A program made the translations under genes and the position numbers. DNA of 64,000 nucleotides from Ehretia macrophylla. Its lineage: Eukaryota > Streptophyta > Magnoliopsida > Boraginales > Ehretiaceae. The DNA is taken from assembly GCA_037974665.1 (NCBI GenBank), contig CM075773.1:48128080-48192079 (forward strand), read 5' to 3'. The notes beneath the pieces were generated by a model. It did no database searches and was not told the origin of the DNA. It was given only the letters and a program-made list of their open reading frames with translations. Every line of letters begins with the position of its first letter. Position 1 is the stretch's first letter. Below, piece by piece: positions 614 to 62,505 of this stretch.

Positions 614-660
614 ATGGCAGAGGCTACAACAAGAAGTTATTTTCTTCACCTCTCAGGGAC
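614..660 (+). pseudogene. 4-TM family copy 1: first codons only
   Basis: From the ATG at 614 about 15 codons match the family start (MAEATTRSYFLHLSG). Homology then stops at a run beginning gggactaaatt. No membrane segment is left. An in-frame upstream ATG exists in the leader, as in the copy at 61864. It is the stump of a family member cut by an insertion and deletion. Confidence 0.7.
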
Positions 661-834
661 TAAATTAATTTTTTTTTTAAAATAATAGAGACTATGTTGG
701 TTAGTTTTGAACAATATAAACTATTTTGAATCACTTTTGTAAATATTATGAACTAATATAATTTTTTTTAAATATTAAGGATCAACTTGAAAAAATGTAT
801 AAACAATAGGGACTATATGCATAATTTACCCAAA
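656..834. mobile_element. Short AT-rich insertion in family copy 1
   Basis: About 175 bp that starts gggactaaatta and ends gggactatatgcataatttaccc. It interrupts the family match, and afterwards the leader region is seen a second time. The two ends carry 'gggacta' in the same direction. No clear terminal inverted repeat or target duplication was found, so the element class is open. Confidence 0.3.
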
Positions 835-835
835 A

Positions 836-922
836 ATGAAATCTACTACAAGTCCACTCCTCTAACCGAGCATTTTTATCTTCACATGTGGTCTTTTATT
901 GCAGAGGCTACAACAAGAAATT
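836..922 (+). repeat. Second copy of the family leader and start codons
   Basis: This stretch repeats 550-640 (leader, 'catttttatcttcaca', then gcagaggctacaacaag) but the ATG is changed (attgcagagg). It then joins directly to the 5' intergenic block of the next unit. This shows that a gene body was deleted between leader and next unit. Confidence 0.6.
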
Positions 923-1447
923 TTGTGTAATTTTAAGGTATTTTTAAGCTTAAAAACTCAGTTTTTAGTCCCCATGAAAAAGATTGATATGAATCATAAA
1001 TTATGTATTTTTTAGCTCACAATGAACAAAAATCCTGAATATGTCAAATTCTTAACCGGGGGTGTATGTAATATCCCACATTAGTAAAAAACAACATAGG
1101 TGTATAGTTTCCAAGTAGGTATTGTAGATTTGAATACTAACCCGAGTTAGTTGTTTTAGGTTAATGAATTTGAAACTAAAGTAATTATATTTTAAGCTTA
1201 TAATGCAAGCCTGAGGTTTTGATGTTGGGAGTGACTGTATAACACTGCGTGTATGTATGTATTAAGTATACATACATATACAAGTATTAAGGACAAGTAA
1301 AACTTTTCACTTATTACCTTTTCTTTCTCGTCATAAACCCCGAAATTCTATTATTAAAGGATTTTTCAATTCATTGATAAATTTGTGCTTCCAAAAGTCA
1401 ATCCAAATAAGAGAAAGATTTCCCTAATTCTCCCATTGTCTTTCTTT

Positions 1448-1505
<58 letters not shown>

Positions 1506-1745
1506 GAAAGTGTAATCCGAACCTATGTCCTAAGCTTTTATGTTGACCATGAGTCTAGTTTTTATTTTTATTTTTATTTTTTGTTAAGGTGATAACCAGA
1601 GGAGTAGGATCACTGATTGAATTTGACGATACCCGATCACCAATTAAGAAATTTATGGGTATAACAATATGCTCCAACACATATTACAAGTTAGTCAAGA
1701 ATTTGAAAGAGTTTTGAAGTCAAACATCCCATATGAGTCTTGTAT
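918..1745. repeat. Intergenic block of the duplicated unit, copy U1
   Basis: This block is clearly homologous to about 56190-56990 and 60830-61620. Shared marks are 'aaaaactcagtttttagtcc', 'cataccatacata'-type stretches near 1255, and 'gtcaaacatcccatatgag' near the end. Because three copies lie before family members or their remnants, it is the 5' part of the duplicated unit. U1 contains a TA microsatellite that the other two lack. No coding potential was seen. Confidence 0.7.
1450..1502. repeat. (AT)n microsatellite
   Basis: About 26 uninterrupted AT dinucleotides inside intergenic block U1. Confidence 0.95.
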
Positions 1746-1859
1746 CTTGATATTTTTTCCTTCCAACTCCTACATGACACTTATGTTTTTCAACCTCTAC
1801 ATGGCCTCATTTCTTTTATTTTTCAGACATGCATCACGTAAAAATAATCCCTAAAACTT

Positions 1860-2811
1860 TTGAATCTATCAATTACATGACAAATTTTAACCCTTTTTGA
1901 ATTCAACGAAGAAAAAATACCAACATATAGAGGTACATAGGTGAAGAATTTTAAATACATAATAATATGAATTCTTCATAAAAATCGTAATTTAATTGGT
2001 ATTTATTTCGTAGTAGATGCGGAATAGTTTGCAGGAATTTGTCACGTTAGTTCTACTGTATAAAGCCACAAATTGTAATCCAAAGTACGAGATAAAGGAT
2101 TAATTAGTTACGACTTAAATGCCCTATTTGATTTGATATTTACACATAGTAAATGACAGAGAGATTGAGAGAGGGAGAAAATCTAAGAAGAAGACTTACT
2201 GCCTTCTTATTTTCTGGTTTCAAGAACTAAACTGTATATCAGTTCTATTGTTTTTTTTTTTTCTAATTCCTATTTTAGAAATAGGATTAGAAGGTATGGG
2301 AATAACTTCTCATAACTTCTATGACCTATACAAACTGGTCGGGTTGGGTCAATCCATATTGGACGACCCAATCGCAAAATCCAACAATAGGCATATACAC
2401 AAATGTATTTATTAGAATGTTGAACTCACAACAAGTTGGTCTTTCGTATAAAATATACATATATATACAAGGGTGAGTCTTCGTATATATGTACATTTAG
2501 CAGAAAAATGAGATGCAACAGGCCTTCATCTTACAATATCATATACCAGAATAACTCCAACAACAAAGGTTGTTGGTCCTGCTCTTGAAGTTTTTCATGG
2601 AGTCTCGCGGTGGGGGTCAACATTGATGCAACTTTCTTTAATTCTTACAACTTGTGCATGTTTACAACTTTTCCACGTATACAACTTTTACAGGTATTTT
2701 ATGGGTTCGCTTCTAAGCTTATGCTATTTAAGTTCACAATTTCACTTCTTGATCTACAAGTACTCCATCTGCCTTCTTATCATTTTTCATCTTCATAACT
2801 TATTACTTTCT
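1860..2811. other. Non-coding 5' flank of copy 2
   Basis: AT-rich sequence with no recognisable gene. Stretches near 2450-2490 hold 'atatacatatatatac' runs. The last 100 bp (ttcacttcttgatctacaag ... catctgcc) resemble the leaders of the copies at 42122 and 45095. An ORF is open in frame from 2623, but sequence before 2812 does not match other copies at protein level, so I do not extend the gene. Confidence 0.4.
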
Positions 2812-3183
2812 ATGGCAGAGGCTACAAGAACAAGCCATTTTTTTCACCTTTCCGGAGAAAACATGTCTGGGCAGTTCAATGGCATGTATATGATGACAAT
2901 GAACACTCTTTGTTTGCAAAGCAACAATAATATTCTGCCTACTCTCCTTACTATTCTTGCACTCATTGTCCCAGTGTTGTTCAACTTTCTGCAATTGAAG
3001 TATCATGGGAAGAATGAGTCTCCACTCCATTCGAATCCCATCCAGCAACTATGTTTATCACCATTACTAGTCTACTTATATTTTGCTTGGCATCTTATGT
3101 TTCCATCCAGAATAACCTTCATCCATCAAGCTAGGTTTTTCCCACACAATGATGCGTACCAAGTAGATTCACTTCCTGTGTAA
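2812..3183 (+). CDS. 4-TM family copy 2, shortened but open (123 aa)
   Basis: I do not recognise a known family. The start at 2812 (MAEATRTSH) matches all other copies. Residues 1 to about 72 follow the intact copy at 42122 and include the first membrane segment. An extra 4 bp around 3023-3028 shifts the frame. A deletion of about 265 bp at about 3108-3116 then removes membrane segments 3 and 4 and brings the frame back. The ORF therefore still ends in the family tail IHQARFFPHNDAYQVDSLPV. The out-of-frame middle is hydrophobic by chance. It is either a short variant that could be expressed or a pseudogene that happens to stay open; I favour the latter. The 3' flank is well conserved. Confidence 0.6.
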   Translation: MAEATRTSHFFHLSGENMSGQFNGMYMMTMNTLCLQSNNNILPTLLTILALIVPVLFNFLQLKYHGKNESPLHSNPIQQLCLSPLLVYLYFAWHLMFPSRITFIHQARFFPHNDAYQVDSLPV

Positions 3184-3540
3184 CGAGGGGCTGAGCTACG
3201 ATTTTAAGGTCAAAATGTATGTAAGAGGGGTCAGTGTGTGATTTCAAATTGTCAGAATGATCTAATATAAAAAGTTTTTCCCATATTAAGAGTGTTCCTT
3301 GAGGGCATCCTCATGTCAATGTAACTTTGGCACTGTGTGTAACTATAGTATTGGTGTAACAAATTAATGGATAGATGATATGATTCCACATTTTGATGGT
3401 TTGATGAGCAGGGCAACAAAATTGTACAATATCCACTTTCTGGAACTTAGATTTACTTGATGGATTTTGTTAGTATTTGAAGGTTTGGTTAGTTGTGCAC
3501 AGCAGATAATACTAATTTTGATTTATACTCTTTATTAATA
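3184..3540 (+). repeat. Conserved 3' flank of family copy 2
   Basis: After the stop codon about 350 bp match the flanks after 33146, 42751 and 58988. Shared marks include a gctgagctacgat-type start, 'gatgatccaatata', 'gtaactgtagtattggtgtaac' and 'ttgatggtttgatgagcaggg'. It is likely the 3' UTR and terminator region of the family gene. No AATAAA is obvious. Confidence 0.6.
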
Positions 3541-3729
3541 TAATAACATGATTAAAAAGATCAATTTATAGTAGTGAATAACTCAAATCATTTCATCACT
3601 ATCAATTTCCTTAATGACATTATTTATTATTAGAAATTTTTATCATTTTGTCGCATCCATATTATAATATAATGACACAGGAATAAAATCTACGTAATAC
3701 ACTACAAGAAAAAACGATTTCGGCGACGG

Positions 3730-4195
3730 AGCGTCGCTATGCCGTCGCTTTTCTGCGAGGGCTTGGCGAGGGCCCACACTATCCCTCACCGATTCGGCGA
3801 GGCACGACACTCTTCCTCGCCGAATCGGCTAGGGAACTCACTGTCCCTTGCTGAATCGGCTAGGGAACTCGCTGTCCTTCGCCGAATCGGTGAGGCAAGG
3901 CCATGTCCCTCACCGAATCAGCGAGGGACAGTGTCGGCCCTCGCCGATTCGGCGAGGAAACTCGCTGTCCCTCGCGGAATCGGCGAGGGAAGGCCATGTC
4001 CCTCGCCGGATCGGCTAGGGACAGTGTTGGCCCTCGCCGAATCGGCGAGGGAAGGCTATGTGCCTCTCTGAATCGGCGAGGGACAATGTCGGCCCTCACC
4101 GAATCGGCGAAGGAAGGCCTTGTCCCTCACCGATTCGGCGAGGGAATGTACTGTCCCTCGCTGACTTGGCGAGGGAATTAGACGTTCATTGCCGA
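3730..4195. repeat. Left subterminal repeat array of the CACTA element
   Basis: About fifteen copies of a palindromic unit, close to 'ccctcgccgaatcggcgagggac' with variants, in both orientations. It is much richer in GC and CpG than the surrounding DNA. In CACTA elements such repeats bind the TnpA-type protein. Both strands are open as ORFs of repeated arginine-rich peptides, but these only reflect the repeat. Confidence 0.85.
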
Positions 4196-4199
4196 TTCA

Positions 4200-4994
4200 C
4201 TTTTATGTTTAGATTGAACAAATAAAATTAGAAAATTTAAGAAAGGTCAATTCGAACAATTAGGCGACTGACAATCATTCCCCTTGCCGATTCGACCCCA
4301 ACATTTTTTACGGTACATGAAAATAGTCGTAATTTATAATTACTACAAATAATTAGTTCTAAGTTTACATTTAACAATTATGATTATTTCATATAATAAT
4401 CATAATGAGTGTTTTAAAAGCATTGAATTTAAATTTAATAATATGTAGTAAATTTATTTTAAATAATTATACATGCAACTAGTGAGTAATTTTTTTCCTT
4501 TTTAAAATGTCCTAGATTGGCGTATACATAACTATATACAAAATTTATATTTAACGTCATGCAAAATAGAAATAATTATTTCTTTCAAATTGACATCACG
4601 AAATTATAATTAAAGCATTTTCTTATAAGAGTTAATGCATTACAAGCATAAACTTAATTTTACATTTTTGGGAATTACTAAAAGATTACATGGCGTGCAT
4701 TTTTTATAATGCAACACAACGAGTTAATACCTAACCCCCCATAAAGATTACACATTATTTTCGAGGGCTTACATAAACGCACCTACTTAATACCTAAAAC
4801 CCTATAAAGATTACAAATTATTTTCGAGGGCTTACATAAACACACCTACTTAATACCTAACATAGTATTGCAATATCACTAATATATAACAAGTGCACAC
4901 TACACATCAGGCAGAAGAACGTAGTAACATTGTTATATTTAGTAACAATTTCTACTATTGCTGATGCTTCTAAGATGATAAAAAGATATAGATA
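4200..4994. other. Non-coding CACTA interior, left part
   Basis: AT-rich, no gene. A unit of about 60-75 bp is duplicated near 4726-4860 (aataccta..accc, ataaagattaca, attattttcgagggcttacataaac). Confidence 0.5.
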
Positions 4995-5213: not shown

Positions 5214-5284
5214 CCTTCAAACAATTTAGATGAAATCTACAATTACTACTTTGAGATACTATGAGAAAACGCAATGCCAAGTGC

Positions 5285-5293
5285 TATTTATAG
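5285..5293 (-). promoter_or_regulatory. TATA box for the 72-aa reverse-strand ORF
   Basis: The minus strand reads CTATAAATAGC here, a near-perfect plant TATA box. The distance to the ATG at 5213 fits a short 5' UTR. The motif alone could occur by chance in AT-rich DNA, though the flanking C and GC are what plant TATA boxes usually show. Confidence 0.45.
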
Positions 5294-6860: not shown

Positions 6861-6861
6861 A

Positions 6862-9182: not shown

Positions 9183-12100
9183 ATGGCATCATCACGTGAA
9201 TGGATGTATAATCGATGGCTTGATGGATACATTAATGAGGGCTTTGTTGAAGGTGTGCATGAATTTATAACATTCGCAAGTAGTCAACCATATTACATGG
9301 ACGGTGTAAAAATAAGATGTCCATGCATCAAATGCGAAAACTTGTGATATCTTACTGCTGACATTGTGATAAAATATCTTTATAGTAAGGGTTTCATGCC
9401 TAATTACTATGTATGGGTTGCACATGGGGAATATATGTCGAACAACATAAGGGTCACTGAACAACACATTGGTAATAATATGCTACACGACTTAGATTAT
9501 GGAAATAACTATCAGACAATGGTCTTTGATGCTGCTGGAGTAGATATGTTAAGGGATCAGAACGTGAGTGAAGAAGTACCAAACATGGAAGCACAATAAT
9601 TTTTTAATTTTTTGAATGCCTCTGAAAAACCATTGTTTGCGGGTTGTAGAAATCTTACCCAGTTGTCTGTTGTGGCTCGTTATCTAAATATGAAATCAGA
9701 ACATAATATGAGCAACGACCTATTTGATCGTGTGGTCTCAGAGTTTATGGAGTTGATGCCTTTAGAAAATAACCTACCTGAGAACTTATACAGGTTTAAG
9801 AAAATGCTGAAGCCATTGGGGTTAGCTTATCAGAAGATAGATGTATGTGTAAATGGATGTATTTTATTTTATAAGGACAGAAGTTCACTTGAAAATTGTC
9901 CCCATTGTGGCCATTGACGTTTCAAGACAACAACAGGTGTTACAATAGGGCGTAAGCTTATACCTTACCAACAATTAAGATATTTTCCTTTAACACCGAG
10001 GTTAGAAAGATTGTACATGTCGAAGGCTACAGCTGAACACATGCAGTGGCACAAGAAACACCAAACAGATGATGGTTATATTGGTCACCCTTCGGATGCT
10101 GAAGCATGGAAACACTTTGACAGGTTACATCCAGATTTTGCTCATCAGGCTAGAAATATTCGACTTGGTTTGTGTTCAGATGGGTTTACACCTTACAGTT
10201 CAAATGCAAAACCTTATTCATGCTGGTCAGTGATATTAACACCTTACAATCTGCCACCATGGATGTGCATATGCTTATCCCCGGTCCGAAAAATCTTGGT
10301 AAGACAATAGATGTGTATTTAGAGCCTCTCATTGTTGAATTACTAGAATTATGGTTGGAGGGTACACCGTGCTATGATGTTTCAACAAAGACTAATTTTC
10401 AATTGAGGGCAGCTTTGATGTGGACCATAAATGACTTCCCAGCTTATGGTATGTTGTCTGGCTGGAGCACACATGGAAGACTGTCGTGTCCATATTGCAT
10501 GAATAACTCTGATGCTTTTCGGTTGCAAGAAGGAAGGAAGAATTCATTCTTTGATTGTCATCGTAAATTCTTACCGAGTAATAGTTCTATACGACGGGAC
10601 ACAAAAAATTTTTTAAGGGGTAAAAGAGAGACTTGTGGGCCTCCACCCATATTAGATGGTGATCAAATATGGGAAAGTGTGATGAATTTGCCAAAGATCC
10701 AAGAAATGATGAATAACAGGAAAAAAATAAAGTTGAATGGGTTTGGGGAGTGGCACAACTGGACAAAGAGAAGTATTTTTTGGGACTTACCTTACTGGAA
10801 GATGCATCTTGTACGCCACAATTTGGATGTCATGCATATAGAAAAAAAATGTATTTGACAATGTTTTCAACACTGTTATGGGTGTCAAAGGAAAGAGCAA
10901 AGACAATGTAAGAGCGAGAAAAGACATGGAGGTATATTGTGACCGTCCCGAATTATGTGGAGAGTACGTTAATGTGATTGGTGTGTATACTCTCCCCGTG
11001 GCAAAGAGAAAACTACTTCTTGAATGGGTTGAAGAATTAAAATTTCCCGATAGCTATGCATCAAACTTAGCGAGATGTGTTGACATGCAACAATTAAAGA
11101 TGTCACACATGAAGAGCCACGACTGTCATGTCTTCATGGAAAGATTGCTTGTGATTGCATTACGCGAGCTGATGCCTAAATAAGTTTGGGAGGCTTTTGC
11201 ACAACTAAGTTTGTTCTTTACTAACATATGTTGCACAAGTTTGCAAAGTATGGATTTGGAAAGGATGCAAGAAGACATTGTCGTGACTCTTTGCAACTTG
11301 GAGAAGCTGCTACCTCCTGCATTCTTTGATTCAATAGAGCACTTGCCTGTTCATTTGGTCCACGAAGCGATTTGTTGTGGCCCTGTATAATATCGGTGGA
11401 TGTATCCCTTTGAGAGGTTTTTGCAGGGGTTAAAGAGGAAAGTAAAGAATAAGGCACATGTGGAAGGATCCATTTGTGAAGCCTACCACATACTAGAAAC
11501 GTCAACTTTTTGTTCTTATTATTTTGAAGAGCACGTGGCCACTAAGAGTAGAAGGCTTGGTCGGAATGACTAATATGACGATATGGAACACCCCGATGGA
11601 TGCTTGGCTCTATTTACTCATCCGGGCCGCTCAATCGGGAAATGGAAAGAGATGACAATAGCGGAAGAAGATTTCTATTTAGCACACCGCTATGTATTGA
11701 TGAATTGCATAGAGGTACTACCTTATGTCAGGTAAGGCTATGGTAATTTAATAATATGTTAACGTGTTGGGATTTAAATATACAAGATAAATTGACTAAT
11801 ATTTGACTATTTGCCAGCATGTTCGAGGATTACATTCGCAACCAATATGGCCCACTGAATCCGAGAGAACTCCAACTGCATGTTGACAACTTATTCCCGA
11901 AATGGTTATATGAATATGTATGTACATGTCTCATAACAAAAATTCATTTTATCCCTTACGGTATGCATACCTTAAAAGAAGAGTGATATATATTTGTAGG
12001 TTAAGCACAGGAATGATGTAGATCATCGTGTACATTGTCTTTCAATGTGGCCTTATAGATTGGTTAGGACCTCGTCAAGATACATGGTGAATGGATACAG

Positions 12101-12819
12101 ATTTGCAACACACGAATATGCTACATCGATGAAAACAAATAATAGTGGAGTATATGTGAAAGGATAAGCGACGGCAGGGCGGGGGATATTGGCTACTATG
12201 GTGTGTTGCACAACATTATTCAACTTGAATATAATAATCCAACTTTACAACATACAAGGGTAGTTCTCTTTAAGTGCGATTGGTATGATACCACAAATGA
12301 TAGAGGTATGAAATACTATCGCAAATCTAGTTTGGTTGAAGTGAATATGAAGAGAAAGTATCCCAAATATGAACCATTTGTATTGGCTGCCCAAGCTCGG
12401 CAAGTGTATTATTGTAGATATCCAGGGGCGAAGGGGAACCATAAAAATTGGCAAGCAGTAGTTAAAGTATGCCCTAGAAATATCTATGTCATGCCTGAAA
12501 GGAAAGAGTAGTGGAACAAAGAACAAGTTTCCAGTCCGATGAGATGCATGTGCCCGTAAGATAACAGAATGAAAGTAATTTGCCAACAATCCGTCGTGAT
12601 TCGGGTGAGAACAACGAAATATTGGAAGATGATCCAAATGACATCCATGGTCAGCTTATCATTGAACAAAATGAGGAGGAAGAACATGAAGAAGACGAAG
12701 AGGAATATGAAGATGAGACTGAAGATGAAGAGGAGTATGAAGATGCTACTGAAGATGACGACGATGATGATAATGGTGATGATGATGATGAAAATAGTGA
12801 TGAAGATACTGAATATTAG
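9183..12819 (+). pseudogene. CACTA transposase, TNP2-like (decayed)
   Basis: Domains in order: transposase-associated N-terminal domain at 9183-9460 (SREWMYNRWLDG ... IRCPCIKC, then GFMPNYYVW); TNP2 core at about 10000-10860 (ARNIRLGLCSDGFTPY, then IDVYLEPLIVELLELW and WTINDFPAYGMLSGWS); a DUF4218-like part at about 10880-11560; a DUF4216-like part at 12203-12511 (LFKCDWYDT ... VYYCRYPG); and a strongly acidic tail at 12640-12815. The family gene encodes the enzyme that cuts and joins CACTA ends. Here the first frame has stops at 9345 (TGA), 9597 (TAA) and 9915 (TGA). There are frameshifts near 10270 and 10850 and a TAA near 11180. Introns are visible in the second half (for example gtaaggctatgg at 11731). 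Two TGA stops fit CGA to TGA decay. It is non-functional. Confidence 0.88.
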
Positions 12820-16269: not shown

Positions 16270-16640
16270 GTGCGAGGGGTCGGCAAGGGACAAGTAATCG
16301 AGAGTCCGGCGAGGCCACGGCGAGGGACGAAAAAAGGCGAGGGCATGGCGAGGGACGAAAAAAGGCGAGGGCACGGCGAGGGAATAAAAAGGTGAGGGCA
16401 CGGCGAGGGACGAAAAAGGTGAGGGCACGGCGAGGGACGAAAAAGGCGAGGGCACGGCGATGGACGAAAAAGGCGAGGGCACAGTGAGGGACGAAAAAGG
16501 CGAGGGCACGGCGAGAGACGAAAAAGGCGAGGGCACGGAGAGGGACGAAAACTGCGAGGGCTAATTGTCCTCGCATAGTCATCGCCGAAATGGTCACTCG
16601 CCGAGTCATCGCCGAATAGCGTGGGCTCGGAAAGGGACTG
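16270..16640. repeat. Right subterminal repeat array of the CACTA element
   Basis: About eleven tandem copies of a 27-31 bp unit (ggcgagggcacggcgagggacgaaaaa with variants). It shares the 'ggcgaggg' core with the left array but is arranged as direct repeats, while the left array is palindromic. It ends 65 bp before the terminal CACTA. Confidence 0.85.
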
Positions 16641-32546: not shown

Positions 32547-33110
32547 ATGGCCGAAACAAGAATAAACCATTTTGTTCACCAACTTACTGGAGAACACTTG
32601 TATGGCCGGTCCAATGTCATGTATATGATGACAATGAACTGTCTTTCTTTGCAAACCTACAATGTTTTGCCTACTCTCCTTACAATTCTTGCTTTCATTG
32701 TCCCAGTGATTCTCAACTTTCTGCAGTTGAAATACCTAGCCAAGAATGAATCTGCCTTCGAGACCCATCCAGCAACTACGCTCATCGCCATAACAAGTTT
32801 CCTTATATTTTGCTTGGTATGTTATGTTTTGTCGAGAACGACCAATCCCTCCTATTGTTATGCGAAACTTGTTCAAAAACGTATGGCTTTTTTTGGTACT
32901 CTGGCAGTGGCAGCTCTGTACTTGATTCTTTTCCCAGACTCTTTCCGTCCCACTCTATATTTGCTCCCCATTTGTTTTTCAGCAGGTGACATTCTATACA
33001 CCAAATTTTGCTCATTCAGGAGAGCTATGGTTAACATCCTGCAACAGCCACCCATGCAACAAAGATACAGAAAAGTACCCTTGATTCACCAAACTAGGAT
33101 TTTACCATAG
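32547..33110 (+). CDS. 4-TM family copy 3 (187 aa), tail lost by a nonsense codon
   Basis: The start MAETRINHFVHQLTGEHLYG matches the family block; the frame is open through all four membrane segments (about residues 40-62, 74-94, 107-128, 132-150). Compared with the copy at 42122 it lacks about 10 residues after the fourth segment (in-frame deletion in CSF..MVNILQQ). The TAG at 33108 stands where all others have CAG (Gln). Directly after it, in frame up to 33146, the remaining codons still encode the family tail. The change is thus a single C to T. It is the most complete copy after 42122. The function is unknown. It may still make a membrane protein without the conserved C-terminal tail. 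Confidence 0.7.
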   Translation: MAETRINHFVHQLTGEHLYGRSNVMYMMTMNCLSLQTYNVLPTLLTILAFIVPVILNFLQLKYLAKNESAFETHPATTLIAITSFLIFCLVCYVLSRTTNPSYCYAKLVQKRMAFFGTLAVAALYLILFPDSFRPTLYLLPICFSAGDILYTKFCSFRRAMVNILQQPPMQQRYRKVPLIHQTRILP

Positions 33111-33720
33111 ATTGATGCCTACCACGTAGATTCATTTCCTGTGTAACCAGGGGCCGAGCTACAACTCATATAGTAAAAGGGGTTAGTATGTGTATTCATA
33201 CTGTGAGGATGATCCAATATAATTATAAGTTTTTTTTTTTGTGGGAACAAAAAATAAGGTTCTTTGCCCTATTAAGAGTGTTCCCTAACACACCCTCATG
33301 TTTATGTAACTTTACTCATGTTGTGTGTAACTGTAGTATTGGTGTGACAAAGTTAATGGATAAATGATATGTTTTGAAGTTTTGATGGGTTTATGTTTTT
33401 GTGTTTGGTCAAACGTTTTGCTGGTTTGATGCATCCACTTAAATTTTGGAACTTGGATTACACCCTTTGTGCTACTTGGAACCTAAATGTTATTATACAA
33501 TAGTTTCGAGTTTTTTTGCTACTTGAGTTTCATGTAAAGATTCGAGTTTACTTGGTAAACCTTTCATTGTAATGTTTGTTGATGTTGAATGAATTATCTT
33601 ACTGGTTTAGCCAAAAAAAACTTGGATTAGTATACGTAGTTGATAGATTTTTTAGTATTTGAAGGTTTGGTTAGTTGTGCAGGGTACAGCAGATGGTACT
33701 AATTAATTGGGATTTGCTGC
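33111..33720 (+). repeat. Tail codons and 3' flank of family copy 3
   Basis: The 3' flank matches those of copies 2, 4 and 8 (cgagctac, 'gatgatccaatataa', 'gtaactgtagtattggtgtgac'). An insertion at about 33420-33620 is not in the others. Confidence 0.6.
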
Positions 33721-42121: not shown

Positions 42122-42751
42122 ATGGTGCCAGAGGCTACAAGACCAAGCCATTTTCTTCACCTTTCCGAAGAAAACATGAATGGGCAGTTGAATGTGATGT
42201 ATATGATGACAATGAACACTCTTTGTTTGCAAAGCAACAATAATTTTCTGCCTACTCTCCTTACTATTCTTGCATTCATTGTTCCAGTGCTGCTCAACTT
42301 TCTGCAATTGAAGTATATAGCCAAGAATGAATCTCCATTCGAAACCCATCCAGCAACAATGTTTATCGCCATTACTAGTCTCCTCATATTTTGCTTGGCA
42401 TGTTATGTTTCATCTAGATTTTCATCGACCAATCCCTCCCATTCTTATGCCAAAATCGTTCAAAAAGGTATGGTGTTTTTCGGTACTCTAGCAGTGGTAG
42501 CTCTGTACTCGATTCTTTTCCCAGACTCTTTCCGTCCCATTCTATATTTGCTCCCCATTTGCTTTTCAGCAGGTGACCTTCTATACTCCAAATTTTGCTC
42601 TTTTTGGAGTTTTCTATACCGCAGAGTACTTCTGGCTAACATCCTCCAGCAGTCACACGTGCAACAAAGGTTCAGAAGATCGGTATTGATCCACCAATCT
42701 AGGTTTTTGCCACAGAATGATTCGTACCAAGTAGATTCCCTTCCTGTATAA
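42122..42751 (+). CDS. 4-TM family copy 4: intact reference member (209 aa)
   Basis: This is the only copy with a full, uninterrupted frame. The start at 42122 is chosen because the next codons (VPEATRPSHFLHL) align with MAEATRTSHFLHL elsewhere. Layout: conserved N-terminus (1-42, with NVMYMMTMN at 24-32); hydrophobic segments at about 43-65, 78-96, 113-133 and 138-156; a basic stretch with FLYRR and ILQQ (164-188); and the tail IHQSRFLPQNDSYQVDSLPV (190-209). Asn-Glu-Ser (69-71) after segment 1 and AGD (150-152) in segment 4 are kept in all copies. No signal peptide; probably a multi-pass membrane protein. I do not recognise the family and give no function. Intronless. Substitutions versus other copies are spread through the gene. 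Whether it is expressed cannot be told. Confidence 0.75.
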   Translation: MVPEATRPSHFLHLSEENMNGQLNVMYMMTMNTLCLQSNNNFLPTLLTILAFIVPVLLNFLQLKYIAKNESPFETHPATMFIAITSLLIFCLACYVSSRFSSTNPSHSYAKIVQKGMVFFGTLAVVALYSILFPDSFRPILYLLPICFSAGDLLYSKFCSFWSFLYRRVLLANILQQSHVQQRFRRSVLIHQSRFLPQNDSYQVDSLPV

Positions 42752-43242: not shown

Positions 43243-43772
43243 ATGGCAGAGGCTACAAGAACAATTCATTTTCTCCACCTCTTGGGATAAAATTTCTATG
43301 CCCAGTTTAATGTCATATGTATGAAAATGAAGTGTCTTCGTCTGCAAAGCTACCATACTTTGGTGACTCACCTTACTATTCTTGCATTCATCGTTCCAAT
43401 TCTGCTCAACTTTCTGGAATTGAAGTATCAAGCAAAAAATGAGTCTCCATTGGAAACCCATCTGGAAACAATGTTTGTAGCCATTACAAGTCTGCTCATG
43501 TATTGCTTGTCGTATCATGTTATTTCGAAAATTCCGTTGAGCATTAATTCCTCCCCATTCTTATGCGAAAATTGTTCAAAAAGTTATGGTGTTTTTTGCT
43601 ACTCTGTCAATGGCGTCTCTGTACTCTGTTCTTTTCCCAGGAGGTCCGTCCCGTTCTGTATCTGCTGCCCTTTTGTTTTTCAGTAGGTGACTTGCTATAC
43701 TGCAAATTCTGCACATTGTGGCGTTTGTTATACTGGAAAATTATGGTTAAGGTTGATTCACTTCCTGTGTAG
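43243..43772 (+). pseudogene. 4-TM family copy 5, pseudogene
   Basis: ATG at 43243 (MAEATRTIHFLHLLG) is followed by TAA at 43288, where others have GAA. The family frame continues from about 43321 (CLRLQSYHTLVTHLTILAFIVP) through membrane segments 1 and 2. An extra base near 43553 shifts the frame; the other frame then carries RPVLYLLPFCFSVGDLLY (segment 4). A deletion joins the end of the basic stretch directly to VDSLPV and a stop at 43770-43772. At least one nonsense codon, one frameshift and one deletion make it dead. It resembles the copy at 61864 more than the copy at 42122 (LELK and SYHT shared). Confidence 0.88.
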
Positions 43773-43785
43773 CTACAGTATATAT

Positions 43786-44110
43786 CACTACAACAAAAAT
43801 GGATACAATTTCGGCAGATACTACTGCTTATGACATCTCACGTATTTCAACAAGGGCGGATGTAAGTTCAGGACAGTGGAGATTGCAATTTCCATTGGTC
43901 TAAAAGAACGTGAATAAATTAAATTGGTGTATTTTTAAAAAAAAAATTAAATATCAATGTATTTTTGTTTAAAAAAATTAAATAGCCCCATTGAAAAAAA
44001 ATGTACTCATATAATTGAAAAATAATGTGTTTTACCACCCATTAAGAAGAATTCCTGAATACGATATATATTGAAATTTTTCTATTTTTGTTGTCTCTGT
44101 AAAACTTTTT
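43786..44110. mobile_element. Remnant starting with a CACTA-like end
   Basis: CACTACAACAAAAATGGATA begins at 43786 followed by 'caatttcggcagata'. The matching inverted end was not found. The rest is AT-rich with 'attaaat' runs. It separates pseudogene copy 5 from the tail fragment at 44120. Confidence 0.45.
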
Positions 44111-44119
44111 ATTGTTCAC

Positions 44120-44226
44120 CTCCACAAAATAAGAAGCATGAAGACAGGTCTATTCATAGGCTCCATCATCAGACTTGGTTTTTGCCACAGAATGATGTAT
44201 ATCAAGTAGATTCACTTCCAGTATAA
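44120..44226 (+). pseudogene. 4-TM family, C-terminal tail fragment
   Basis: In one frame up to the stop at 44224-44226 the DNA encodes HRLHHQTWFLPQNDVYQVDS and LPV, the family tail. No other part of the gene is next to it. Since copy 5 has its own VDSLPV, this is the end of another copy or of an older version of copy 5. Confidence 0.75.
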
Positions 44227-45094: not shown

Positions 45095-45382
45095 ATGGCA
45101 GAGACTACAAGAACAAGCCATTTTCTTCAACTCTTCGGACAAAACTTGTATGCGCAGTTTATTGTCATGTACATGACGACAATGAACACTCTTTGTTTGC
45201 AAAGCTACAATATTCTGCTTGCTCTCCTTACTATTCTTGCATTCATTGTCCCAGTGCTGCTCAACTTTCCGCAATTGAAGTATCAAGGGAAGCATGAGTC
45301 TCCATTCGAGACCCATGATTTTGGATCGTGCATGTGGTTCGCAATTCACCTACATAACTCAAGTACCGATACATTTTCTTAA
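45095..45382 (+). pseudogene. 4-TM family copy 7, truncated after membrane segment 1
   Basis: The frame is clean from MAETTRTSHFLQLFGQNLYA through segment 1 and the loop (KHESPFETH). Homology ends at about 45317, and the ORF then runs 21 unrelated codons to a stop. Segments 2-4 and the tail are missing. The leader (gtagtcccatcttctgctttccctttttc) matches that of copy 8 at 58352, and both share FGQN and ETTR/ETAR, so these two form a subgroup. Confidence 0.85.
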
Positions 45383-47120: not shown

Positions 47121-47692
47121 AATCATTTGCATTAAAGAATAAGCAATCTTGACAACACACAGGTGGAATCACTCCATTGTGTTAATGATAAGAAGGAAGC
47201 TTCTACTTGGACTTTTTCTTTAATTATAGGGGAGACTTTCTGCATGATACAATGTTTAGACAATAAGAACAAAAGAAAACATAACATTCACCTGAATACT
47301 TCTTTCATTAAGGAAAATTTTCAAATAAACTACTTATCCAGAGTACTCGTGATGTTCCTGTTATCTAGTCATTTACTTTTTGTACTTTCTACAACACAGA
47401 ATACTGATTAAATAGAAGATGTTAATCATTTCATCACCATAAACTATCCTTTGCTTGCCCCAGGGATGTTCTAAGCTTACATTCATAACATATAAGTGCT
47501 GCAACATGGCTCTTCAACTTATTTCCACAAAAAGAGAAATTTGAAAATATGGCCCCCCACTGACAAGATTGCGACCATCAAATTTTGGAAAAGAAACTGT
47601 TTCATGCACGTTAGGCAATAGCCAACCATATACACTAATGATATACAGAGAATACACCAGTTAGAAAAAAATAATTGCATCAGCCTTTTTAC

Positions 47693-48071
47693 CTGACAAA
47701 AACAGAGAATGAGCAACCGAAGTCATGAAAATTGAGTGTGCTTTTTGCCAATTTGCACATTGCAAAAAATGTTCAAGAGCCTTTGGGAGATCACCAAAGT
47801 AATTGAAATACACTACCTGCATAAGATACACAGCCAGAGGAACTAGATCCCTCATAATAATGATTGACCAGCAACTTTGCACCATCTTTGTGACAAAGAA
47901 ACACCAACTGACCAGAGCTTCATGCAACCATGCTGAAGGGATGCCTAATTCCTCAATGAATCGCTGTTGCATGTCCTGAGTACTCCAAATTTCACAATAT
48001 TGGAAGAGGATCTCTCTTATAAGATTAGCCTGTAAATAGGGATAATCTTCACGATAGAGCAAGTGAAGCAC
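47693..48071 (-). pseudogene. NUP96-like: NUP96 exon fragments captured in the Helitron
   Basis: Two exons: 48071-47913 (53 codons; YREDYPYLQANLIREILFQY, ending SAWLHEAL before GTCAGT) and 47816-47693 (124 bp; VYFNYFGDLPKALEHFL, ending AHSIFMTSVAHSLFLS before GTAAAA). The intron between them (96 bp) happens to be open. This matches a conserved part in the C-terminal half of plant NUP96 (MOS3/SAR3), a scaffold protein of the nuclear pore about 1,000 residues long. Only about 94 residues are present here; flanking NUP96 exons were looked for and not found. The exons have no stop codon. A transcript of the Helitron could include them, but no functional NUP96 can come from it. Confidence 0.85.
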
Positions 48072-52030: not shown

Positions 52031-52031
52031 A

Positions 52032-53342
52032 ATGGCCCAACAAGGAACCGATTCCCCCCCATCCGACAACGAAGTCCATAACCATGCGAACGCGATGATG
52101 ATGATGTACACACAATATCAATCAGTAGTGCAGGCTGCATAGGAAGCAATTACAGATCAACATGAAGGAATATCGTCGCGTCGACGATCCATACAAAGAG
52201 ATCGGGTAGGTGCTCATAATAGGCTAATGAATGATTATTTTGTTGACCGTCCTTTGTATCCTGCTTCTGAATTCCAAAATAGGTTTCGCATGAGGCGCGA
52301 AATGTTTTTGAGAATTATGGGGGATATTGTGCATTTTGACGATTACTTCAAACAGAAACCGGATGCAGCCGGAAAGCTTGGTTTCTCACCGTATGTAAAG
52401 ATGACAGCCGCGCTTCGTATGCTTGCCTATAGAAACCCAGCAGATGCAAATGACGATTATTTGAAAATTGCAGAGACCACATGTTTGGAGTCGATGATGA
52501 GATTCTGTCGTGCCGTAAATGCAATGTATGGAGACGAGTATCTTCGTCGACCAAACAATGCAGACATGTATAGGCTACTGCGAAAAGCCGATGAACGGGG
52601 ATTTCCTGGAATGATAGGTAGTATCGATTGCATGCACTGGGAATGGAAAATTTGTCCAACCGCGTGGGCGGGTACATATGCTGGGCACCATGGTTCTCCT
52701 ACCATAATCCTTGAAGCGGTTGCATCGTACGACACTTGGATATGGCATTCATACTTCGGTCCACTAGGTGCACGCAATGATCTTAATGTATTATACAGCT
52801 CACCTATATTTAATGATGTTCTTGAAGGACTAGCAACGCGCATTCGGTTCACCGTCAACGGGAGACGATACAAACAAGGATATTATCTGGCTGATGGTAT
52901 ATATCCTAAATGGTCCACCATCGTTCAAGCATTTACCGATCCACAAGGTGAAGATAAAATCTTATTTACAAGATTGCAACAGGCATACCGTAAGGATGTC
53001 GAAAGGGCTTTTGGAATCCTTCAAGCTCGGTTTAAGATTGTCAAAGGGCCATATCGTTTTTGGCATGAAGATGATATTGGGGAGATTATGAAGACATGTA
53101 TAATTCTTCATAATATGATTGTTGAAGATAACCGGATAGAAGAAGGCGATAATTTTGTCGATGATCCGTCTCGTTTTCATGTAGACGAGCCACCTGTTGT
53201 GCCCGATCAAGATCCAATTACGATTAACGAATATTTAAACAATCGTGGACAAGTCAGGGACGAAACTGCGTACTTTCTCCTCCGAAGTGACCTTGTTCAA
53301 CATGTGTGGAACGAATTTCGTGTAGGAAATATAAATTTGTAA
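52032..53342 (+). pseudogene. PIF/Harbinger transposase (DDE_Tnp_4, HARBI1-like), one nonsense codon
   Basis: The family ATG is at 52032 (MAQQGTDSPPSDNEVHN). Codon 37 is TAG (52140-52142); after it the frame is open to 53342. The next internal Met is at 52227 and gives 371 residues. The catalytic acids are visible: Asp in SIDCMHWEWK, Asp in GARNDLNVL and Glu in ERAFGILQARF, with ADGIYP between the second and third. An N-terminal helix-turn-helix-like region (FRMRREMFLRIM) is kept. The enzyme cuts the element ends together with the Myb-type partner. Intronless. If translation starts at 52227 the domain is nearly whole, so some activity cannot be excluded. Confidence 0.88.
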
Positions 53343-53435
53343 TCTCATTATGCAATCTGATATCTAATAAAACATATATTTAACTAATTAAAATATGAAT
53401 TACAAACACATAGCTGATAAATAATACAAATACAT

Positions 53436-54349
53436 CTATTGTTCTTCGTCAAGTGAAGTCATATGAGGATGATAAACGTCATTATCAAAGTTAATGGAAC
53501 GGGATGCCCTTTTTGCCATAATTGCATTTTGTTCCTCAATCATCCACGCTTTCCTAGCTGGAGTTTCGATTGTCGAAGTCTTCGTCATCATAATCTTATA
53601 ATCGTTAGAAGTTTCTATTTCCTGTTTGTACTCATTCATTGTTTTTGCCATGTTTTTCGCTTGTTCATTAAGATTTTCCGCAACGGCCTTACCCTTTGCT
53701 TGTTTTCTAGCCTTTTTGTTTCCAATCGGCCTTGACGATCTCGAGGTTTCCGGCACTGATTCCATGGGATCATCATTATCAAGAGAAAAATCTGTCTCAG
53801 GTGGACTCATATTCATCATTGGACTCGCAATATCGATTATTGATCGACATTTTTTCCCGTGTTGTAAAATTGACCAACAGTGTTCGAGATTGAAATTCTG
53901 ACCCATAGCTGTGTATAAACGTCTTGCGTCATCCATCTACAAAACAATTAAATATCTCTCAAAATTTAATTTTAAAATTTGTTAGGTATTAAATACAATA
54001 TACTCTATAAAAATACAATTACTTTGGCTAAAAAACTCACATTGTCAACGATATTTGCTCCGCTCCTTGGTCTCATATTAACTTGAGCAAGACATTCCGC
54101 AAATTTTGTGCATTTTTGGTTTATTTGCGTCCATCAGGATTTAAGGCTCTTCGTTGTTCTTTTTTCACTTGGATTGTTGGGAGGGTGAAACTCTTCATAT
54201 TTTTGTAGAACTCGATTCCACATTGTTCCTGATGTTTGGTTTATCCCAATCAAAGGATCTTCGCTAATCGCGATATAGGCCCGGCACAAAGCCTTATCAT
54301 CTTCATGCGTGAAATTACGTCCCTTTGAAAGTCCGTCTGTGCATTCCAT
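53436..54349 (-). pseudogene. Harbinger Myb/SANT-like second gene, with an in-frame TGA
   Basis: Exon 1 (54349-54041, 103 codons) encodes KGRNFTHEDDKALCRAYIAI and SEDPLIGINQ, a trihelix/SANT-type DNA-binding domain. TGA at 54136-54134 stands where related proteins have Arg before W (CGA to TGA). Reading goes on behind it (TQINQKCTKFAECLAQVNMR). Intron 54040-53937 has GTGAGT and TAG ends. Exon 2 (53936-53436) encodes ARRLYTAMGQNFNLEHCWSI, the NAM-associated type C-terminal domain, and a basic, lysine-rich stretch (GNKKARKQAKGK). The protein brings the transposase into the nucleus and to the element ends in related systems. It runs toward the transposase gene with about 90 bp between the stop codons. 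Confidence 0.85.
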
Positions 54350-55752: not shown

Positions 55753-57140
55753 GTCTTCGAAAAAGCTTGAGAATCCAGCAGATTCATCTCTCTTTGTATC
55801 CATGTATAATGTCTTATATATGTGGAAGATGTTATAAATATATAGTTTATAAGTAAATGTTATATGTTTAAGTAAAAATTTGAATTAATTATTTTGTGTT
55901 AGTGAATTAAAAGTTTAAATAGTTATTTTTTTTAGTGTATAACACCGTCTTGTTTGTGAGCTTAGAGCGTGACAAAATATTATTCAACGCCTGCACTAGC
56001 CAATCTTGAAAGCTAAGTGTCATATAGAGCTACACTAATAAGGTAATAGAAGCCATCTCTTAAACTTTAAGGAGTCACCTCTAAAATCTTGCATCGCTAA
56101 GTACTAGTATTTGTGCCAATTACAAGTATAGGCGTATTTACTTGGTGGAGCAACACTATGAAAGAGTGAGTTGAAACTATATTTTAAAATTTTGTGTATA
56201 TTTTAAGGGTCAAAAACTCAGTTTTTAGTCCCCTGAAAAAGATATCCATGTATGAATTATAAATTATGTATTTTTAGCTCATACTGAACAAAAATCATGA
56301 GTATGTCAAATCCTTAACGAAGGGTATGTGTAATATCACACATTGGTGAAAAACAATATAGGTGTATAGTTCCTAAGTAGGTGTCACGGATTTGAATATT
56401 AACCTGAGTTAACTATTTTAGGCTAGTAAATTTGAAACTAAAGTAATTATATTTAAAACTTATAATGCAAGCATGAGGTTTTGATGTTGGGAAGTGATAG
56501 TATAACAATAAGTGCATGTATGTATTAGTGTAAATACATATACAACTATTAAGAACAAGTAAAACTTTTCATTTGTTACCTTTTCTTTCTCGCCATAAAT
56601 CCCGAAATTCCATTGTTAAAAGGTTTTTCAATTCATTGATAAATTTGCGCTTCCAAAGTCAATCCAAATGAGAGAAAGATTGTCCTAATTATCCCATTGC
56701 CTTTTTATTTTTTTCTTAAATTCTTTTTTCAGAAAGTGCAATCCAAACGTATGTCCTAAGGTTTTATGTTCACCATGAGTCTAGTTTTTATTTTTATTTT
56801 TATTTTTTGTTAAAGTGATAAATCAGTTAGTGAAGTACGATCACCGATTGAATTTGATGAAACCCAATCACTAATTAATAAATTCATAAATGTAGTAGTG
56901 TATTTCAACACATATTATAAATAAGTCAAAATTTGAACCTAATAAGCAACAAAAGACTTTTGTAAGTCAAACATCCCATATGAGTCTAGTTCCTTATTAT
57001 GAACAGGGCACCAGCAGTTTCTCTGCAGCTTCGTGAATGACATGCTAAACAATTTTCAACAACTTTTGGGGTTGAAAGTGACAAATAACCTTTCTACTTC
57101 TTGATCTACTACAAGTTTTATGACGACAAAAGAAATCTAC
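55753..57140. repeat. Intergenic block of the duplicated unit, copy U2 (copy A right piece)
   Basis: It follows 60613-61800 with few gaps. At about 57085 a deletion of about 38 bp, compared with 61705-61752, joins 'ttgaaagtgac' to 'aaataaccttt' and removes most of the TATA box. The leader ends at 57145 and no family gene body follows. The block also holds the unoccupied MITE site at about 55858-55868. Confidence 0.75.
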
Positions 57141-58351: not shown

Positions 58352-58988
58352 ATGGCAGAGACTGCAAGAACGAGCCATTTTCTTCACCTCTTCGGACAAA
58401 ACTGGTATGCGCAGTTTAATGTCATGTATATCATAACGAATTCTCATTGTTTGCAAAGCTACAATAATATTCTCCCCTACACTCTCCTTACTGTTCTTGC
58501 ATTCATTGTCCCAGTGCTGATAAACTTTCTGCAATTGAAGTATCAAGCAAAAAATGAATCTCCATTCGAAACCCATCCAGCAACAATGTTTATCGCCATT
58601 ACAAGTCTGCTCCTTATGTTTTGCTTGGCATGTTATGTAATGTCAAAAACTTCATTGACCAATTCCTCACATTCTTATAATGCCAAAATAATTGTTCAAA
58701 AAGTAATGGTGTTTTGTGATACTCTGTCAGTGACAGTTCTATACTTTGTTCTTTTCCCAGACTCTTTCCATCCCATTCTATATTTGCTCCCCATTTGCTT
58801 TTCCGGCAGGTGACATTCTATACTCCAAATTTTGTTCTTTTTGGAGTTTTCTATACTGGAGAGTTATGGTTAACATCCTCCAGCAATCACACATGCAACA
58901 AAGGTTCACAAGAGACGTAACATTGATCCACCAAGCTAGGTTTTTGCCACAGAATGATGCGCACCAAGTAGATTCCCTTCCTGTGTAA
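58352..58988 (+). pseudogene. 4-TM family copy 8, full length with one frameshift
   Basis: From MAETARTSHFLHLFGQNWYA the frame is open for 154 codons through segment 4 (ILYLLPICFS). One extra base at about 58805 (ttttccggcagg instead of ttttcagcagg) causes a stop at 58811-58813. The next frame continues with GDILYSKFCSFWSFLYWRVM and the full tail ending HQVDSLPV at 58988. Without the extra base it would be about 211 residues, like the copy at 42122. A sequencing or assembly error could explain a single-base change, so this copy is the best candidate for a second functional gene. Confidence 0.85.
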
Positions 58989-59340
58989 CCACGGGTCGAA
59001 CTACGATTCTAAGATCAGGGTGTACACTCATATAATAAGAGAGATCAGCATGTGTATTCATACTATGAGAATGATCCAATATAATAAGTTTTTTTTTGTG
59101 TAAGTTCTTTTCCCCTAATTAAGAGTGTCCCCTGCACATACTCTCATGTCAATGTAACTTTGCCATTGTATGTAACTGTAGTATATGCGTAACAAATTAA
59201 TGGATAAATGATATGATTCCACGTTTTGATGGTTTGATGAGCAGGGCAACAAAATGTTACAATATCCACTTTTTGAAGGTTTGGACAGTAGATAATACTA
59301 ATTTGGATTTAAATCCTTTAACATAATAGTATTATTAGAG
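58989..59340 (+). repeat. 3' flank of family copy 8
   Basis: Same flank as after copies 2 and 4, with small deletions. Confidence 0.6.
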
Positions 59341-59929
59341 ATATCAATGGTAGTGAATAACTCAAATACCAAACAAAATACACTAGGCATAGAAACATTT
59401 TACTATTAAAAAATAATTTATCATGCCATTTAAACAAGCAGAACAAGCTCCGATTCCACTTGAAATTTAACACAAATGATGCTAGGATGAACTCAGAGAA
59501 AGAATGAAGAACACAATGTAGGCCATGATTATTAGGAAATTCCTTTATTTCATTATCCAATTTAAACAAGAAATCATAAAATTCTTTTATTTCCTTTCTC
59601 TTGTTTGATTTTTACTTTTACTATCCAAATGAAAAAAAAAAAAATTCTCTTTTTTTCATTTCCATTGTGATTTTTTCTTCTAAATTCCCTTCCTTTACAA
59701 TCTCTCGCAAATCCGGACATACTATAGCACAAGTCTTTAACCACTAGAGTGAGAGAACAATTAAAATAAAAGTAGTAGTTTTTTTATAGCGAATTTACTT
59801 TTATTTAATGACGAGAAACTCAAGTGACGAAGTCTCATCAATAGCTTATACATATGCATCAGGCTCGCGATGCACTCGGTGTCTTTGTCATCGTACAAAA
59901 TTCTATCGATAAATTATTCCATACATCCA
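59341..59929. other. Non-coding stretch with the repeat shared with 18296-18450
   Basis: No gene. The repeat is at 59568-59728. Confidence 0.45.
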
Positions 59930-60095
59930 CGGCCACCCAGCTGTGATCATGGGAGCTGGGACCCACATAAAATGGGGCCACCCCATGTAAATGAATCCGA
60001 CATAGCAAATCTAGCATATTCATCTCTCGTATCCATGCATAATATCGTACATATATGGTTCAGGGTACAAATATATAGTTTGTAAGTGAATGTTA
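59930..60095. repeat. Duplicated flank block, copy B left piece
   Basis: Partner of 50440-50640 and of 55775-55865. Confidence 0.7.
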
Positions 60096-60612
60096 GGACA
60101 TCTTCAATAAAGTTTTAAAACATAATAATTATAATTTTTTAGTAAATATAGAGATTTTAGAAGAAAAAAAGTAATACTAATGGTACATATAAAGCCTCAA
60201 ATCCAAATTTTTGATAAAAAGTTGTCATGCTTCAACAAATTTAGAACTCGGGCTCTATTTTGTTCAATAAATTTGTTGAATAAAATAGAGTCTCAAGAAA
60301 AAGACAAAAAAATTTAGAGCCCACATGGGTCACTTCTAAATCAGATTTGATCACATGAGTCTCTTTAACAAATCAGATTTGACATTTGACTGACAACTTT
60401 AACCAAAAAAAAAAAATAGCAACTTAGGCTCAAAAAAATGGAAGGGACGGCGGGTCCCACCATAGATCTTTAAATTTAGAACCTCCACTGGTGATGAATT
60501 TTTTTAAGAGCCCCTAAAAAACACATAGGGCTCTAAATGAGACTCTAAAAAACAAAGGGACTCTAAATTTATTTTTAGAACCCCTCAATTTAGAGTCTCC
60601 ATTGAGGATACC
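60096..60612. mobile_element. Harbinger-type MITE, 517 bp
   Basis: Left end GGACATCTTCAATAAAGTTT, right end the complement of GGTATCCTCAATGGAGACTC, related to the ends of the Harbinger element at 50643-55749. TTA flanks both sides (60093-60095, 60613-60615). Copy A of the block shows the empty site 'aatgttatatgtt' with a single TTA. No ORF inside, so it would need a transposase in trans. Confidence 0.82.
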
Positions 60613-60615
60613 TTA

Positions 60616-61748
60616 TATGTTATTCAACGCTTGTCACCAGCCAAGCTTGAAAGCTAAGTGTTGTGTACTATTATACCAAGAAGATAGTAGAAGCTATCTC
60701 TTAAATCTAAATGAGTCACCTCTAAAATCCTGCATCGCTAGGTAGTAGTATTTGTGCCAGTTACGAGTATAGGCGTATTTACTTGTTGGAGTAGCACTAT
60801 GAATGAGTGAATTGAAGCTGTATTTTGAATTTTTTTGAAATTTTTAAGGTATTTTAAGGCTTAAAAACTCAGTTTTTAGTCCCCCAAAAAAAGATATCGA
60901 TATATGAATTATAAATTATTTGTTTTTAGCTCACACTGAACAAAAATTCTGAGTATGTCAAGTCTTTAATGGGGATTTATGTAACGTCCCACATTAGTGA
61001 AAAACAACATAGGTCTATAGTTCTTAAGTAGATGTTGTGAATTTGAGTACAAACCTGAGTTAATTATTTTAGGTTAGTGAATTTGAAACTAAAATAATTA
61101 TATTTTAAGCTTATAATACCAGCCTGAGGTTTTGATGTTGGGAAGTGATGGTTTAACAATGCGTGCATGTATGTGTTAAGTATACATACATATACAACTA
61201 TTGAGGACAAGTAAAACTTTTCACTTGTTACCTTTTCTTTCTCGCCATAAACCCCGAAATTCTATTATTAAAGGATTTTTCAATTCATTGATAAATTTTC
61301 ACTTTCAAAAGTCAATCCAAATAAGAGAAAGATTTTCCTAATTACCTCCTTGTCTTTTTTTTTTTTTTTCTTAAATTCTTTGCTCAGAAAGTGCAATCCA
61401 AACCAATGTCCTAAGGTTTTATGTCGACCATGAGTCTAGTTTTTATTTTTATTTTTTGTTAAAGTGATAACCCAGTTACAGGAGTTCGATCCCCGATTGA
61501 ATTTGATGATACCCAATCACCAATTTAAAAATTCACAAATATAACAATGTGTTCCAACACATACTAGAAATCAATCAAGAATTTGAAAGACTTTCAAAGT
61601 CAAACATCCCATATGAGTCTACTTCCTATTATGAACAGGGCTCCAGCAGTTTCTCTGCAGCTTCGTGAATGACATGCTAAACAATTTCAACAACTTTCGG
61701 GGTTGAAAGTGACATCCCAGGGTTGGCTGATGCTGACTCAACATTCGT
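60616..61748. repeat. Intergenic block of the duplicated unit, copy U3
   Basis: Same order as U1 and U2 and the most complete copy, running without a break into promoter and gene copy 9. Confidence 0.75.
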
Positions 61749-61756
61749 TATAAATA
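61749..61756 (+). promoter_or_regulatory. TATA box of family copy 9
   Basis: TATAAATA, 108 bp before the ATG at 61864, conserved with 499-506. An in-frame upstream ATG at 61789 would add 25 residues; it is also present and in frame at copy 1, so the true start is not settled. Confidence 0.55.
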
Positions 61757-61863
61757 ACCTTTCTACTTCTTGATCTACTACAAGTTTTATGACAAAAAAA
61801 GTAATCTACTACAAATCCTCCTCTCCTCTAGCCAAGCATTTTTATCTTCACAGGTGGTCTTAT

Positions 61864-62505
61864 ATGGAAGAGGCTACAACAAGAAGTTATCTTCTTCACC
61901 TCTTCGGAGAAAACTTGTATGCCCAGTTTAATGTCATGTATATGATGACAATTAAGTGTTTTTTGTCGCAAAGCTACCATACCCTAGCTGCTCACCACAC
62001 TATTCTTGCATTCATAGTCCCAGTGCTGCTCAACTTTCTGGAATTGAAGTTTCAAGGCAAAAATGAATCTCCAGCAACAATGCTTATAGCCAATGCGAGT
62101 CTGCTCATATATTACTTTTCATACCATGTTCTGCTGGGAATTTCATTGAGCAATTCTCCCCATTTTTATGCGAAAATTGTTCAAAAAGTTTTGGTGTTTT
62201 TTGGTACTCTGTCAATGGCGTCTCTGTACTCTATTCTTTTTTCAGACTCCATACGCCCCGTTCTATATTTGCTGCCAGTCTGTTTTTCAGCAGGTGACCT
62301 GTTATACAGCAAACTTTGCACGTTATAGAGATTGTTATACTGGAAAATTATGATTAAGATTGGTCGCCGATCACATGTGCAAGAAAGGCTCAGAAGACGA
62401 ACCTTATTCCACCAAACCTAGGTTTTGCCACAGAATGATGCATACCAACAAACTTGGGTTTTACCACAGAACGATGAACACCGAATAGATTTGCTTCCTG
62501 TTTAA
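61864..62505 (+). pseudogene. 4-TM family copy 9, two stop codons and a duplicated tail
   Basis: The frame MEEATTRSYLLHLFGENLYA is open for 154 codons, through all four membrane segments. A TAG at 62326-62328 replaces the Trp codon found in the relatives. A second TAG is at 62419-62421. The same frame runs on to TAA at 62503-62505 and shows the tail motif twice: LPQNDAYQ and then LPQNDEHRIDLLPV, from a duplicated segment of about 36 bp. Compared with copy 4 it lacks a few residues in the first loop. The part before the first stop could still give a 154-residue protein with the four membrane segments. Confidence 0.85.

Follow-up and report, generated by a model that had tools for sequence, protein, structure and literature searches.

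A 64,000-nucleotide stretch of the Ehretia macrophylla genome (C10:48,128,080-48,192,079, contig CM075773.1; the whole stretch is called the window here) carries nine copies or pieces of a single gene family, all on the + strand, that encodes a predicted membrane protein of about 205 amino acids. The copies were found by tblastn and blastn with the intact open reading frame (ORF) at 42122-42751 (Table 1), and the family coding sequence, as read from genomic sequence, runs in a single frame without introns. One of the nine is intact, and the rest carry stops, frameshifts or deletions, or are fragments. An initial annotation of the window had listed nine copies or pieces in tandem; all were recovered, the ninth (609-666) being clear only as DNA, and their common strand bears out the tandem arrangement. 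The window is the right-hand end of an array of this family that spans ~4.4 Mb, from about C10:43.786 Mb to 48.191 Mb.

Table 1. Family copies and related features of the window (positions from the first base of the window).
Feature	Positions	Strand	tblastn match (E about 1e-5 or better)	Remarks
5' piece only	609-666	+		weak as protein (E 0.88), clear as DNA (blastn 83% over 58 bases, E 8e-9)
Copy with internal deletion, both ends kept	2812-3183	+	2818-3180	ORF of 123 amino acids; tail VDSLPV
Near-complete copy	32547-33146	+	32556-33143	one in-frame TAG; tail VDSFPV, past the in-frame stop
Intact copy, single ORF	42122-42751	+	42122-42748	209 amino acids; genome place C10:48170201; tail VDSLPV
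Codons of loop 1, KNESPFETHP	42323-42352	+		residues 68-77; best-conserved block
Codons of the VDSLPV tail	42731-42748	+		residues 204-209
Broken copy (stops, frameshift)	43243-43853	+	43249-43853	tail VDSLPV
3' piece	44161-44226	+	44161-44223	ends QVDSLPV
5' piece	45095-45316	+	45101-45316	
Frameshift-broken copy	58352-58988	+	58358-58985	VDSLPV tail in another frame
Last copy found at the array's right end	61864-62502	+	61870-62448	two in-frame stops; tail IDLLPV
Upstream block common to some units	60827-61362	+		85-87% identity within the window
Other window copies of the upstream block	about 917-1448 and 56187-56704			

The full extent of the array was determined by searching the genome (1.58 Gb, 20 contigs) with the 209-residue protein of ORF 42122-42751. 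All 150 matches scored, out of 628 candidates, lie on C10 between 43,797,746 and 48,190,530, with 149 on the + strand, and a fragment at C10:43,786,377 extends the left end. Residues 12-200 are covered stop-free in 58 of the 150, the same span contains a stop in 41, and 51 are shorter; a stop-free span is not equivalent to an intact gene, as at least two such matches (loci L021 and L049) lack an ATG where one is usual. KNESPFETHP, the core of the first loop of the protein, was also sought with a degenerate DNA pattern; allowing up to two mismatches, it matched 223 genome sites (220 forward and 3 reverse; control pattern, 0), and those among the matches listed are all on C10. The array holds well over a hundred gene copies, many of them broken. 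It is divided by 513 kb without scored copies (C10:46.126-46.639 Mb), and two 10 kb samples of this gap (L019 and L020) contained no copy. The 30 kb to the right of the window (L012-L014) and loci L015 and L016 on the left side yielded no family copy. A pattern for the C-terminal sequence VDSLPV gave 118 genome sites (109 forward and 9 reverse; control pattern, 3), and three of the matches listed fall on C9. That contig was rejected as a second site of the family: loci L009-L011 have no tblastn match at E 1e-3, L010 holds ORFs that by eye are EF-hand/exchanger-like, and L011 has no family ORF. With the control pattern also giving three hits, these C9 matches are attributed to chance.

Tandem gene families that evolve by birth and death are an established general kind, and the copies described here are clustered, mostly on the same strand, diverged and interspersed with pseudogenes, as in such families. 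It is probable that the locus is a membrane-protein gene array that evolves by birth and death at this one place. The array resembles other birth-and-death families in combining many diverged copies, pseudogenes and block duplications at one locus, but differs from the usual ones in that its unit is an unnamed membrane protein, it exceeds 4 Mb, and nearly all of its scored copies share one strand. That the copies instead belong to a transposable element targeting the region is very hard to credit. Transposase ORFs of Plant_tran and tnp2 type are present in the window, and parts of the upstream block match weakly on other contigs; however, the dispersal in both orientations that marks transposable elements was not found, with none of the 150 scored matches outside the 4.4 Mb region and 149 on one strand, and the closest copy pairs align through both flanks, over 3.5 kb, as in tandem duplication. 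In the genome search with the upstream block (40 of 114 candidates scored), the best 24 of 42 matches are in the array and weaker ones are also on other contigs. These weak partial matches on other chromosomes suggest that the block may include a dispersed repeat.

Growth of the birth-and-death array would have begun with tandem duplication and continued by duplication of larger blocks, such as one of ~83.6 kb that is present three times. From 46.857 to 47.055 Mb, a series of six members repeats in unchanged order at ~83.6 kb spacing (four members occur three times and the other two twice), and the pair of block members that was compared (L049 and L021) is 96.6% identical over 861 bases. The block duplications are recognized by member order, member type and this one pair; a periodicity test using positions only gave 10 shared offsets against a random mean of 9.3 and maximum of 12, which is not above random and tells against them. 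Other pairs of copies are ~93% identical from the start codon to near the stop, with flanks that gave no alignment at the scoring used. Sequence exchange between copies is likely, and it is also suggested by two copies (L030:1195-1782 and L031:1195-1815) that by eye look like mosaics, with the front of one subtype and the C-terminal part of another. Many of the copies have decayed.

The encoded protein was described in the initial annotation as having four hydrophobic segments. Three of these prove clear. The computed family-mean hydropathy over 19 residues peaks near residues 52, 88 and 124, and the fourth segment (139-157) is weaker, with a family-mean peak of 1.3. In the intact window copy the segments lie at about residues 42-62, 78-97 and 114-134, with the weaker one at 139-160. 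Its arginines and lysines fall mostly within the C-terminal part and within loop 2. Membrane segments are commonly oriented by the positive-inside rule, which, given where the positive residues are concentrated, makes an inside C-terminus probable. A count of four segments would then place the N-terminus inside as well, and loop 1 outside. We infer that the most likely topology has four membrane segments, with the N- and C-termini both inside. Three observations weigh against it. First, only the first three segments of the intact copy exceed a hydropathy of 1.4. Second, the AlphaFold models do place a helix at the fourth segment, but they are poor and of low confidence (predicted local distance difference test, pLDDT, 58.4 and 50.6). 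Finally, the intact copy has a net acidic N-terminal part (E4, R7, E16, E17), which speaks somewhat against an inside N-terminus and weakens the model.

Conservation within the family was computed from 33 ORFs of at least 195 amino acids among the fetched loci, or from 32 for the tail, where one ORF that ends before the tail was left out. What is conserved in the protein is loop 1, which joins segments 1 and 2, rather than the tail. Mean pairwise identity among 32 intact copies reaches 0.917 in the loop-1 core, and no other ten-residue window is as high; the corresponding values are 0.70 for the whole protein, 0.64 for the N-terminal part and 0.73-0.77 for the hydrophobic segments. Loop 2 and the C-terminal part appear to vary more. 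The initial annotation had instead emphasized an invariant, specially retained VDSLPV tail, and had read it as a possible sorting or protein-binding signal. Invariance does not survive the larger sample: VDSLPV is found at five of the seven 3' ends preserved among the nine window copies (Table 1) and at 17 of 32 intact copies genome-wide, with twelve different endings in the remaining 15 (e.g., VDSLLV, VDLLPV, VDFLPV, VDSLSM, IDLLHV). A selected signal at this position is unlikely. It would account for the higher identity of the tail than of the C-terminal stretch ahead of it (0.79 against 0.63), for the constancy of Asp205 (identical in all 32 intact copies, as no other tail residue is) and near-constancy of Leu207, and for a ratio of nonsynonymous to synonymous differences (pN/pS) of 0.36 in the 20-column window containing the tail, against 0.70 immediately before. 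The variety of endings argues against it, however, as does the rank of the tail, which is 38th among 203 scored six-residue windows, and broken copies keep the tail as well. The occurrence of VDSLPV in truncated copies is as expected from shared descent, in line with a caution already given in the initial annotation.

A codon model fitted to the 33 intact ORFs gives a ratio of nonsynonymous to synonymous substitution rates (dN/dS, omega) of 0.576 (second estimate, 0.571), with a log-likelihood of -6106.73 against -6141.91 for omega fixed to 1 (twice the difference, 2dlnL, ~70). Omega is below 1 in all six overlapping subsets (0.51-0.67, 2dlnL 7.2-46.8). Nei-Gojobori dN/dS, in seven bins above a dS of 0.02 and in order of rising dS, is 0.46 (3 pairs), 0.62 (22), 0.52 (46), 0.48 (61), 0.42 (77), 0.40 (231) and 0.37 (87); simulated neutral evolution, run with the transition bias seen in the data, gave 0.67-0.80, against this observed range of 0.37-0.62. 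Divergence of the 3' flank exceeds dS (437 of 528 pairs in the bins used, with uncertain flank alignment). These estimates indicate weak purifying selection over the history of the family. A dN/dS near 1, which the initial annotation had named as telling against its reading of the family, is not what the 33 intact paralogues within this one genome give (omega 0.58).

Several of the results on selection point the other way. When 26 broken pieces are each set against the closest intact relative, dN/dS is 0.46 (interval 0.39-0.51), equal to that of intact copies among themselves (0.44; interval 0.39-0.49, n=24 pairs), so present constraint on the intact copies is not demonstrated. The single pair below a dS of 0.02 has a Nei-Gojobori dN/dS of 1.31. 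Differences at codon positions 1+2, divided by those at position 3, give 0.74-0.88 in 78 pairs of less than 12% divergence and 0.68 in 450 more distant pairs, and the higher ratio in close pairs suggests that constraint has been weaker lately. Exchange between copies can, in addition, distort codon models. Such observations bring in a different account of the locus, in which it is a passenger of segmental expansion, most copies are idle and the constraint was inherited from an ancestral functional gene. We regard this as possible, if somewhat unlikely. The shared dN/dS of broken and intact copies, the weaker constraint in close pairs, the block duplication, and the 92 of 150 scored matches that are stopped or short would all fit an idle array, but 58 of the 150 are near full length and stop-free, and omega is below 1 in every subset. 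The sole neighbour tested, a NUP96 piece, also speaks against a passenger array; it was rejected as a travelling companion of the family, as it matches nine genome places (on C10, C14, C15 and C19) of which only two are in the array.

The family is unnamed, ordinary in kind, and striking in scale for a single locus. The initial annotation knew of no named family with this layout, and searches of Pfam, NCBIfam and the PDB assigned it to none. For five window family ORFs no Pfam-A match reaches the curated cut-off, and among 40 members (curated cut-offs being displayed for the first member only) matches are at chance level, with a best E of 0.0029 and no Pfam family matched by more than seven members. 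In NCBIfam, a library that covers bacteria and archaea, three proteins scored no higher than 16.2 bits, where the cut-off is 40. The 40-member profile has no match in PDB sequences at E up to 10, and a single protein has two (E 0.44 and 0.86). Foldseek, run from a poor model (pLDDT 58), gave 53 PDB matches at E up to 10 and none at E <= 0.001; the AlphaFold structures, with the low pLDDT values given above, were too poor and were left unused. No relatives were found in viral contigs, plasmids or prokaryote genome contigs, as expected for a plant gene, and no description of the family was found in titles and abstract openings of the literature, searched also with peptide strings.

Two groups of plant proteins invite comparison, on the basis of a single review (PMC13033167). 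PrpS of Papaver is described there as a hydrophobic, small membrane protein of ~20 kDa for which multiple segments are predicted and no domain is known; it acts in pollen as the male self-incompatibility determinant and has alleles at the S-locus (PMC13033167). SE1, SE2 and SEA, products of homologous genes and found in the stigma of Convolvulaceae, have four predicted transmembrane domains and no other domain, and are candidate female self-incompatibility determinants (PMC13033167). Homologues of both groups are reported to be confined to their own plant families, and both are discussed as atypical receptors or channel-like proteins (PMC13033167). The Ehretia proteins resemble them, by these descriptions, in size and segments only, a loose feature of many unrelated proteins. 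Unlike SE1, SE2 and SEA, which in that account are three named genes, the Ehretia family is an array of over a hundred, and whereas PrpS and the SE proteins are tied there to pollen or stigma, the Ehretia family is not known to have such a tie. A role as an atypical receptor or channel, after the manner of the four-segment self-incompatibility proteins, is best treated as an unproven analogy.

As the most likely role we tentatively propose, with considerable doubt, that the product is a small membrane protein, probably oligomeric and either a receptor or channel-like, that acts through its conserved outer loop. The KNESPFETHP loop, facing outward or into the lumen in this model, would be the likely site of action, through binding or ion coordination. 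A more specific proposal, which we think improbable, sees the array as a recognition locus, in which dozens of diverse intact four-segment receptors would use the outer loop and a variable tail to tell self from non-self or to recognize pathogens. With the same low probability, such a locus would be an independent counterpart in kind of PrpS and the SE atypical receptors. Should the genes be expressed, about 4.4 Mb of one chromosome would be given over to a single unnamed membrane protein, and an array of this size would suit a function in recognition or in dosage. If they are silent, the locus would illustrate clearly how a gene array can expand as a passenger.

Precise handles for seeking a single-copy ancestor in other plants come from the conserved loop, from the genes beside the array and from the locus itself; the place to compare lies between acyl-CoA-oxidase/OB-fold genes and MYB genes. 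The left flank (L015, C10:43.760-43.770 Mb) contains acyl-CoA-oxidase-domain ORFs together with an OB-fold ORF, which by eye we take to be STN1-like. To the right is a MYB-domain ORF, along with an ORF without a Pfam match that we presume, by eye, to resemble the zinc-knuckle start of a KUA1/MYBS3-type MYB. The window ORF at 63365-63856, also without a Pfam match, may by eye belong with this KUA1/MYBS3-like ORF.

Scans of the window for tRNA genes and Rfam families found nothing. Several other features lie among the family copies. Two transposon types are represented by ORFs inside the array, at window 10172-12511 and 52227-53936: a tnp2-type transposon (Transposase_21, DUF4216) and another type in which a Plant_tran ORF adjoins a NAM-associated ORF. 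The NUP96 piece, on the - strand at 47661-48071, is an exon-like part of a nuclear pore protein gene (Nup96 domain, E 1e-6). A 31-base tandem repeat of ~13 copies, with an inverted repeat inside each, lies at 3782-4177, and a 27-base array at 16308-16561 has a GGCGAGGG core similar to that of the 31-base repeat.

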